From an uncultured Coriobacteriaceae bacterium (GTDB lineage: Bacteria; Actinomycetota; Coriobacteriia; Coriobacteriales; Coriobacteriaceae): DNA of 64,000 bases. The position numbers and the translations under genes were made by a program. Under the pieces are notes generated by a model, which was not told the origin of the DNA, ran no database searches, and worked only from the letters and a program-made list of their open reading frames with translations. The DNA is taken from assembly GCA_944322305.1 (NCBI GenBank), contig CALUOP010000002.1, positions 124,001-188,000 on the forward strand. Direction: 5' to 3'. Every line of letters begins with the position of its first letter. The stretch's first letter is position 1. Shown here in pieces: positions 19,925-47,800 of the stretch.

Positions 19925-19979
19925 GCTCGCACCGATCCAGCGAAAGCAGAATCGCGACCAACCGCCCGAGTCACGCTCC

Positions 19980-20253
19980 CGGTTGGTCGCGCTTTTTCCG
20001 ATAAGGACCCGCGCGAGCCGCTTGCCTGGCACGGTTGCCCGCAGCGGCGGCATGTAGGCTCCGGTTGGTCGCGATCAGCACAGCCAAGCCTTCAGTTGAA
20101 CGCTGTTGCCGCAGCTAACTTCCGTTTAGCCGCGACAACTGCACGTAACTCCCGGATTTCCGGGAGTTGGCCGCCGTCAGGGCGACCAACCGCCCCGGCG
20201 ACGACAGAATCGCGGGCAACCGAAGCCCTGCGTGACGCATTGGCGACCAACCG
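19980..20253. repeat. Mirror-image array, family 2 copy A, around a 22-bp palindrome
   Basis: The core at 20147-20168 has arms AACTCCCGGA and TCCGGGAGTT around TT. CGGTTGG-type sites on the left end at 20129, 20099, 20068, 20038 and 19986; CCAACCG-type sites on the right begin at 20186, 20216 and 20247. The first three on each side lie at identical distances (28.5, 58.5, 89.5) from the core centre. It occupies the 529-base gap 19925-20453, in which no gene or promoter is evident. Confidence 0.85.
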
Positions 20254-25218: not shown

Positions 25219-25288
25219 CGGTCGGTCGCTTTGGCGACATCTAACTCGCGGGAAATCGAGAACTACATGTCGCCCGAGCGACCAACTG
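25219..25288. repeat. Mirror-image array, family 2 copy D (minimal)
   Basis: A 22-nt degenerate core (25243-25264, AACTCGCGGG...GAGAACT) has one site on each side: CGGTCGG ending at 25225 and CCAACTG beginning at 25282. Both are 28.5 bp from the core centre, the same distance as in copies A-C. Confidence 0.65.
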
Positions 25289-25301
25289 CCTCAGATCTGG
25301 C

Positions 25302-25344
25302 GCGCTTGCGCCAAATTAAGCGCGGCCTAATTTGGCGCAAGCGC
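25302..25344. terminator. 17-bp perfect hairpin between convergent genes
   Basis: GCGCTTGCGCCAAATTA (25302-25318) pairs perfectly with 25328-25344 around a 9-nt loop. There is no long T-run. It ends 6 bases before the stop of the minus-strand ABC gene, so it probably terminates both transcripts. Confidence 0.6.
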
Positions 25345-25349
25345 CTCCG

Positions 25350-34353: not shown

Positions 34354-35033
34354 GGTGACCTCCCGATACGAAAAGCGGGGAATATCCCCGCCTTTGGATG
34401 GACCAGATCCTTTCGGCCAGCCTAGAAACTAAAGTTGCCGTACCATTCCCGCGCTTTCTTATGCACGAAAAGTGCCCACATAGCCATAAGGAACGGCGGA
34501 TGAAAAGTCGGATGCTCCGGGAAATTCATGTGCACTGTTAGGGAGGGCGGGTGCAGATGGCCGAACGTGCGAGACGTGCCGTCTGCACCCGTCCCGAATG
34601 ACAGGCGCTTGTCGTATGATCCGGGGCATCGTTCGATGATCGTTGGCGCTGCTTGCGATGTGACGGCAAGCTTGCAATTGGTCGCGACTTTATCATGACA
34701 GGAGCGGTTGGCCGTGCGGACGACGGCTAATTCTCGGATTTCCGGGAGTTGCGTGCGCTTTTTGAGGCTAAGTGGTTCTTAGAGGTCGAAGGGGCGTTGA
34801 ACCGGGCTCCTCGATGTCGAAGGGGCGACCAACTCGGTTGCTTGATGTCAGAAACGCGGTCAACCGCACGGCCCAATGCCGCATGGAATGGCCCAACGCC
34901 GCGCGCAACCAAAAGGCGCCAACAAAAACGGGGCCGAGAACGCGAAGGTTCAACGTAAACTCTTGCGTTCCCGGCTCCGTCTCATGCACGTGACAAGCTC
35001 AGGAAAGGTGAGGCGCTCCCGGCGTCCGCGGCG
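34354..35033. other. Gene-poor region with hairpins and array copy C
   Basis: No gene is supported. It contains a short hairpin (GCGGGGA/TCCCCGC, 34375-34391), a 16-bp hairpin with one bulge (34545-34560 with 34579-34595, 18-nt loop) and the family-2 array copy C (34675-34912). A 72-residue frame on the minus strand around 34460-34677 has no family resemblance and no good start. Confidence 0.6.
34675..34912. repeat. Mirror-image array, family 2 copy C
   Basis: Core 34729-34750 (AATTCTCGGA and TCCGGGAGTT arms). Left sites CGGTTGG and CAATTGG end at 34711 and 34681. Right sites begin at 34768 (CTAAGTG), 34798 (TGAACCG), 34829 (CCAACTC) and 34860 (TCAACCG). Distances from the centre are 28.5, 58.5, 89.5 and 120.5, as in the other copies. 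Confidence 0.8.
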
Positions 35034-47206: not shown

Positions 47207-47800
47207 CAGTTAATCGCGAGAACGACATATAGGCTTCGGTTGCCCGCGATTGTTGCAGGTAGGCTCTTGGTTAAACGCTGTTATCGCATGTAATTTCCGT
47301 TTGGTCGTTCAAAGCGCACGCAATTCCCGGATTTCCGGGAATTGGATGTCGTCAGAGCGGCTAACTGTTTTGTGGATGACGAAATCGCGACCAAGCGCGA
47401 CGCTAGATGACAACTCTGCGGCTAACCGAGGGGCTACATGTCGTTTGCGCGACCGACTGAGGTGGCCCGGACGTGGCGAATCGGGTTAGCGGTCGTTCTC
47501 GCGACCAACTGGGGCGCGTCTCTCGCCTTACCTGCTGTTCTCGCGGCTAACTGAAGGGCGGCTTGCGTCTGCATGTCGTTTCCGCGACCAACCGCCATGT
47601 CGGCCTTCTCTTATTTGCTGTTTTCGCGACCAACCGCGCGGATGGAGGATGGCTTTACGACTGGTTGGGGGGTTGCGTGCGGTTCTCGCGACCAACTGGA
47701 GCGCGGGGCTTGCGCCCGCAGGTCATTTTCACGACTAACTGCTGCCGGCCGCCCCGCGCACCCGCGTTCCACCGCTGTGTGCTGTTCTCGCGTCCAAACG
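47207..47800. repeat. Mirror-image array, family 2 copy B (largest)
   Basis: Core palindrome 47322-47343 (AATTCCCGGA / TCCGGGAATT). Left sites end at 47304, 47274, 47243 and 47213. Right sites begin at 47361, 47391, 47422, 47453, 47505, 47547, 47588, 47630, 47692, 47735 and 47794, each CCAACTG-, CTAACTG- or CCAACCG-like and mostly preceded by TTCTCGCGA. Most intervals are 30-31, 41-43, 52 or 62 bases. It fills most of the 978-base gap between tRNA-Leu and the HAD gene; no gene is evident there. Confidence 0.85.

Follow-up and report, generated by a model that had tools for sequence, protein, structure and literature searches.

The window, the whole stretch of 64,000 nucleotides analysed here, belongs to a 2.35-Mb draft genome and carries at 47207-47800 fifteen short sites arranged in mirror image around a palindrome. 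The palindrome is the 22-bp sequence AATTCCCGGATTTCCGGGAATT at 47322-47343, composed as AATTCCCGGA-TT-TCCGGGAATT. To its left, four sites lie on the minus strand at 47207, 47237, 47268 and 47298 (47207-47308), separated by gaps of 30, 31 and 30 bp. To its right, eleven sites lie on the plus strand at 47357, 47387, 47418, 47449, 47501, 47543, 47584, 47626, 47688, 47731 and 47790 (47357-47800), at intervals of 30, 31, 31, 52, 42, 41, 42, 62, 43 and 59 bp. The innermost sites of the two arms are 59 bp apart. A sequence-only reading of the locus had described these fifteen sites, the palindrome and the opposite orientations on its two sides, and every element is recovered, the sites by a position weight matrix (PWM) trained on copies outside the window. 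The right-arm intervals that it had given match to the base. As it had also claimed, all of them except the last lie near multiples of 10.4 bp, the 59-bp interval towards the outer end being the sole one out of phase, and the copy is the largest, with the highest number of sites among all 72 arrays found in the genome.

We refer to arrays of this type as family A. Their unit is asymmetric and consists of two parts, TGNCG and GCGACCAACYG, with about 5 bp between them, so that the second conserved patch, TGNCG, sits approximately 10 bp, or about one helix turn, upstream of the 11-bp core. Read away from the centre, each arm is approximately TTCCGGGAGTTAGnTGCCGTTnGAGCGACCAACCG CTCCttaGATGTCGaAAnn GCGACCAACCG aagCCTTnnntGnCGnnnncGCGGCCAACCG. 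Arms of variable length abut a centre of 14-22 bp, and in most copies the sites are found 24, 54 and 85 bp from it; 55 of the 72 arrays have the complete set of four inner sites. Units are mostly spaced by 30 or 31 bp, i.e. three helix turns, and otherwise by 4, 5, 6 or more turns with constant polarity: within 100 bp of the centre, 334 sites point outward and 6 inward. Information content alternates sharply within the unit, high in site columns and low in spacer columns. It peaks near the centre and declines outward. Spacers vary freely among copies, while the sites are kept, and those of a single array are mutually unrelated.

The window holds three full arrays, centred near 20158, 34740 and 47333, and a minimal one. 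The second full copy (L071; 20032-20253) has its palindrome at 20147-20168, with sites at 20032, 20062, 20093 and 20123 on the minus strand and at 20182, 20212 and 20243 on the plus strand; additional sites occur around it at 19954, 19980 and 20298. In the third (L073; 34675-34866) the palindrome spans 34729-34750, between minus-strand sites at 34675 and 34705 and plus-strand sites at 34794, 34825 and 34856. About 250 bp to its left, at 34377-34424 on the minus strand, there is a match to the Rfam DUF3800-XI RNA (48.9 bits, for a gathering threshold of 37.8). The minimal copy (L072; 25219-25288), detected with the PWM, has a single site per side, at 25219 (minus) and 25278 (plus), 59 bp apart as in the central geometry of full copies. 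It is adjoined at 25297-25345 by an inverted repeat of another palindromic type, GGCGC..TTGCGCCAAATTA..TAATTTGGCGCAAGCGCC.

Across the genome, GCGACCAACYG occurs 128 times, compared with 12 for the reversed pattern; pairs of sites at 30 or 31 bp number 77 (1 when reversed), and the palindrome core is found 17 times (0 when reversed). In the copies listed, inverted sites flank the palindrome core on both sides, a few keeping only one arm well. A profile of the centre, built from sequence only, gave 169 matches on both strands, which correspond to about 72 loci, the weakest few being marginal. The genome scan that had been suggested as a check yields about 72 family A arrays with 545 outward-pointing sites. 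Two outcomes had been named beforehand as fatal to the design, the lack of a genome-wide excess of the spacing and a random spacing of the motif; both were looked for and neither occurred.

The phase of the sites was analysed over all 72 arrays. For successive same-polarity gaps beyond the second unit (n=276), a search between 8 and 14 bp gave a best period of 10.4 bp with a vector strength of 0.878, whereas jittered gaps gave a mean of 0.17 and never exceeded 0.33. Distances of the outer sites from the centre (169 sites, 95-400 bp) have a vector strength of 0.825, also maximal at 10.4 bp. Because the 30- and 31-bp gaps may reflect a repeat unit, the other gaps were considered separately: 77 are in phase, lying at most 1.6 bp from a multiple of 10.4, and 8 are not, for an expectation of 30% (p about 1e-31). 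By both spacings and distances from the centre, the phase is kept for approximately 35 turns. The proposal that the sites face one side of the DNA, with the periodicity check that accompanied it, is supported well beyond the single array for which it was made.

All arrays but one (71 of 72) are intergenic, and the remaining one may lie in a falsely called ORF, genes having been predicted with a simple codon-usage caller. The flanking genes are tandem in 44 cases, convergent in 15 and divergent in 12; for the other gaps in the window (n=31) the counts are 21, 4 and 6, without clear enrichment of any orientation at the arrays. The 131 flanking proteins searched against Pfam are mostly unrelated, the commonest family occurring in four, and no common function emerged. 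No rep or par family is present among the 25 commonest of the 178 Pfam families in these neighbours. The orientation of the central TT gives no signal with respect to gene direction. Near-identical tracts connect some distant arrays (L085 with L105; L058 with L109 and L121) and die out within them, a pattern resembling gene conversion; they show that copies recombine with one another.

The motif is nearly confined to this genome. The pattern of paired sites, found 77 times here, occurs 0-2 times in each of 397 other genomes of the class sample. Among the congeners compared, the family A profile has no match in G001 and G002. In G003 it has ten matches, the six best of which constitute three family A loci, the others being weaker. 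The search for the element in other Coriobacteriia, also suggested at the outset, thus succeeded in one congener, with three copies, and detected none in the rest of the class sample. Two loci of this genome, L065 and L119, are 98-99.7% identical to L125 and L124 of G003, while the species are about 82% identical elsewhere; at one of them the jump in identity starts at the array edge. As this identity is far above the general level, a recent transfer or recombination at the array is likely. Viruses, phages and plasmids gave no match, either by array patterns or with blastn. An origin from such elements was rejected: the palindrome is matched in viral contigs (6) and in genome_contigs (30), but never with an array site within 200 bp, and these matches resemble chance occurrences. 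Similarly, a palindrome scan of 84,980 species returned isolated matches alone, devoid of array sites. No comparable motif stood out when k-mers were scanned in two other genera, over 200 kb of each, a search of low power.

The three congeners do have analogous mirrored elements, built in part on other motifs. The dominant repeat of G003, family B, has units TCGTATGAgtGCGnTTCTCGCCC at a pitch of exactly 30 bp, arranged in mirror image about TCGTACGA. One of the two sides usually has a gap of 113-167 bp next to the centre, holding the partly conserved sequence CCAAAACATA..TGCGTT..GATAAGCACATAATGCG. Family B sites number 112 in this genome (loci L208-L218 and L104) and 103 in G003 (L142, L143, L145, L158, L164 and L219-L226), with 0-1 in other genomes of the family. 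Neither A nor B arrays are found in G001 and G002, so neither is essential in the genus. These two genomes carry family D instead, in which AAGATTACGCA is present twice per side, mirrored as ++--, with a fixed geometry of 29, 57 and 29 bp. We collected 21 full copies from the two genomes (loci L187:13727, L196:17863, L197:12854 and L227-L256), whose spacers are mostly unrelated except between orthologues. In three orthologous pairs, substitutions affect 2 of 132 site positions, 14 of 246 spacer positions and 141 of 900 flanking positions (site versus flank, p 3e-7; site versus spacer, p 0.06); in additional orthologue pairs, spacers likewise diverge and sites are kept. The pitch is 30.0 bp in family B and 29 bp in family D, neither on the 10.4-bp grid, strict phasing being demonstrated for family A only. 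All four genus genomes compared therefore contain mirrored elements of fixed geometry, whose pitch is about three turns and whose motifs vary from species to species. G001 and G002 also have palindrome pairs like TGCCAAATAACGCTGTTAACAGCGTTATTTGGCA that flank an inner inverted pair CTACCTGCG..CGCAGGTAG (L190:17145, L191:7795 and 7888, L202:13821 and L206:463); their core is absent from the pieces of this genome and G003 that were examined.

We consider it probable that 47207-47800 belongs to a set of about 72 arrays, scattered between genes, whose units are putative sites for a sequence-specific DNA-binding protein that would assemble cooperatively outward. Binding by such a candidate protein and its cooperativity are what we infer from the arrangement of the sites, and selection on family A sites is read from their conservation relative to spacers among copies in one genome. 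The protein would nucleate at the palindrome and its flanking units; cooperative loading would then proceed outward along one helix face, giving a continuous or regularly wrapped nucleoprotein complex. A two-part asymmetric unit would suit a protein that touches the DNA at two places, and spacings of at least three turns would leave room for one such protein per unit. Altogether, the common face, the polarity, the outward order, the whole-turn gaps and the free spacers are expected from selection for cooperative protein assembly, and the phase reads like a genomic record of such assembly on one face.

What such an assembly might do is a more tentative matter. Given the scatter of the arrays and the arbitrary genes beside them, an architectural role, i.e. 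condensing, bridging or insulating the chromosome, seems the likeliest, ahead of the control of particular genes; granted that the arrays bind protein, we would still place it somewhat short of an even chance, because dispersal without functional context is also expected of a selfish repeat. If true, it would amount to a lineage-specific chromosome organisation. The related designs with differing motifs in the four genus genomes hint at a fast co-evolution of protein and sites. One may speculate, although we lean against it, that they belong to a genus-wide chromosomal system, in which DNA-binding proteins of a fast-diverging family and mirror-image arrays (A, B and D) diverging alongside would organise or silence the chromosome from tens of loci, the protein spreading from each palindrome along one DNA face. 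That system would, if true, be comparable to nucleoid or centromere-like architecture, in a form specific to this lineage.

The arrays could also be a selfish dispersed repeat, in which a mobility protein (a transposase or similar) would bind the phased sites and spread the element with no gain for the host. Its protein-binding anatomy would be that of the main reading, the difference lying in the reason for the arrays' existence. We hold this to be unlikely, though not far-fetched; if true, it would be a new kind of dispersed repeat. The element is restricted to a lineage, present in tens of copies and found beside arbitrary genes; the intergenic regions that bear it have a median length of 782 bp, where the gaps of the window taken together have one of 145 bp; and the G003 regions orthologous to several arrays are short and lack it, in a genome that aligns to the window over a long stretch at 82% identity. 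The pneumococcal BOX, RUP and SPRITE repeats, similarly distributed, are deemed parasitic by their authors in the cited passages (PMC3049150). Against such an origin, the arrays have no fixed ends, and the near-identical tracts fade inside them as gene conversion predicts. Recently spread copies should share spacers, but these are strongly diverged while the sites are kept. Target duplication was not seen at the element-free orthologous regions, where the intergenic flanks are too diverged to place a junction. The array is absent from the virus, phage and plasmid sequences searched, and RAYT is ruled out as a partner (see below).

Repressors and activators typically bind cooperatively to sites on one face of the helix. 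Family A could accordingly be a set of operator arrays, where a regulator on phased sites would control the neighbouring genes. Their intergenic siting agrees with this, as do those copies that sit between divergent or tandem genes. This is nevertheless improbable, as 15 of the 72 arrays lie between convergent genes (compared with 4 of 31 in the window background), the neighbours have no common function and the central TT has no preferred orientation relative to genes.

Could the mirrored arms instead form a long hairpin in a transcript, as a terminator or processing site? The centre can indeed pair as a perfect stem of 10 bp, and arms in mirror image necessarily have complementary conserved sites. 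However, complementarity between the arms of one copy is not above that between arms of different copies, and over 51 symmetric pairs 68.8% of positions are paired, versus 69.8% in shuffles, with a covariation score equal to that of shuffles. Compensatory arm pairing, the mark of a structured RNA repeat, is thus not seen; no Rfam family matched the array; strict helix-turn spacing is not needed for RNA pairing; and any bias to convergent or downstream positions is too weak to notice. The RNA hairpin was rejected for lack of covariation and of an Rfam match, and it retains a very small probability. The sequence-only reading had argued for protein sites on one helix face rather than RNA, on the grounds that the intervening sequence is neither conserved nor complementary; free spacers, arms that do not covary and the 10.4-bp phase all speak in its favour. 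Finally, tandem duplication or slippage of a 30/31-bp unit as a neutral process, with nothing bound to it, has next to no likelihood: 30 and 31 bp are indeed the commonest gaps and arrays exchange sequence, but gaps of 41-43, 52, 73, 83 and 104 bp cannot be derived from that unit and yet keep the phase (77 to 8), an array's spacers are unrelated to each other, and mirror-image polarity is not a product of slippage.

A search of the literature returned no description of this design, and no bacterial element known to us unites dispersal in the genome, polarity mirrored about a palindrome and strict 10.4-bp phasing over hundreds of bases. The ends of transposons such as Tn7 and Mu each contain several two-part transposase sites, the two ends being mutually inverted. 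Family A also has several two-part sites per arm and inverted arms; unlike those ends, it has neither internal cargo nor fixed termini, and its arms abut a centre of only 14-22 bp. Shared termini as in MITEs are not observed, since the near-identical tracts stop inside the arrays at no fixed point. CRISPR arrays, whose long and nearly identical repeats share one orientation and alternate with unique spacers of similar length, do not fit either, the sites being degenerate, 11 bp long, in two orientations and with gaps that vary by whole turns.

For membership of the REP and BIME families we used their published definitions (PMC3733652, PMC2817692): REPs are palindromes of 20-40 bp with a GTAG or CGTC tag (PMC3733652), and BIMEs are bound by several proteins (PMC2817692). 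Like REP/BIME elements with their REP-associated tyrosine transposases (RAYTs), the arrays are dispersed, intergenic, palindrome-containing and present in many copies, such repeats often being species-specific. They differ in that they repeat an untagged, asymmetric and phased unit and have a palindrome at the centre only. A variety of tetranucleotides is found around the core palindrome, and GTAG and CGTC are not among the commonest. RAYT presence does not follow repeat abundance, as PF01797 is found in 55 of the 67 family genomes, most of them without family A arrays, and the RAYT loci of this genome and G003 have no family A sites, where a RAYT should be flanked by its cognate repeat. The presence of PF01797 in this genome (G000) and G003, and not in G001 or G002, had made RAYT a candidate for the missing partner; it was rejected, nearly all of the 55 genomes being arrayless and the G000 and G003 genes being flanked by other repeats or having no array sites beside them. 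Both of these RAYT-type genes are single-copy and have flanking repeats of their own, of the GGAACACGTCCCCAAC type in this genome (L207:6300-8400) and of the GTACCCGTCCCC / GTACCCGTCCCCAATGGC type in G003 (L150:7900-9000). Each gene with its repeats plausibly constitutes a REP/RAYT pair unrelated to the arrays.

The cited passages on pneumococcal BOX, RUP and SPRITE describe interspersed repeats that hardly occur outside one or two species, a species restriction that the arrays share; they treat those repeats through secondary structure and co-transcription and, within the same passages, report no helical phasing or mirror polarity (PMC3049150). The arrays thus fall under the broad heading of interspersed intergenic repeats, yet they lack the defining features that were tested for the named families.

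Another comparison concerns iteron arrays and centromeres of the parC/ParR type, where asymmetric sites in the same orientation are helix-phased and cooperatively bound by one protein, possibly with an inverted operator nearby. These occur at one or two loci per replicon, adjoin their own rep or par gene and are spaced by one or two turns. Family A matches them in having helix-phased sites of the same polarity; it differs in its roughly 72 dispersed loci beside unrelated genes, its mirroring about a palindrome and its three-turn spacing. Because they are dispersed and no cognate gene is seen alongside among the 25 commonest neighbour families, we do not class the arrays there, yet it is these iteron and centromere arrays that they would resemble most in their working.
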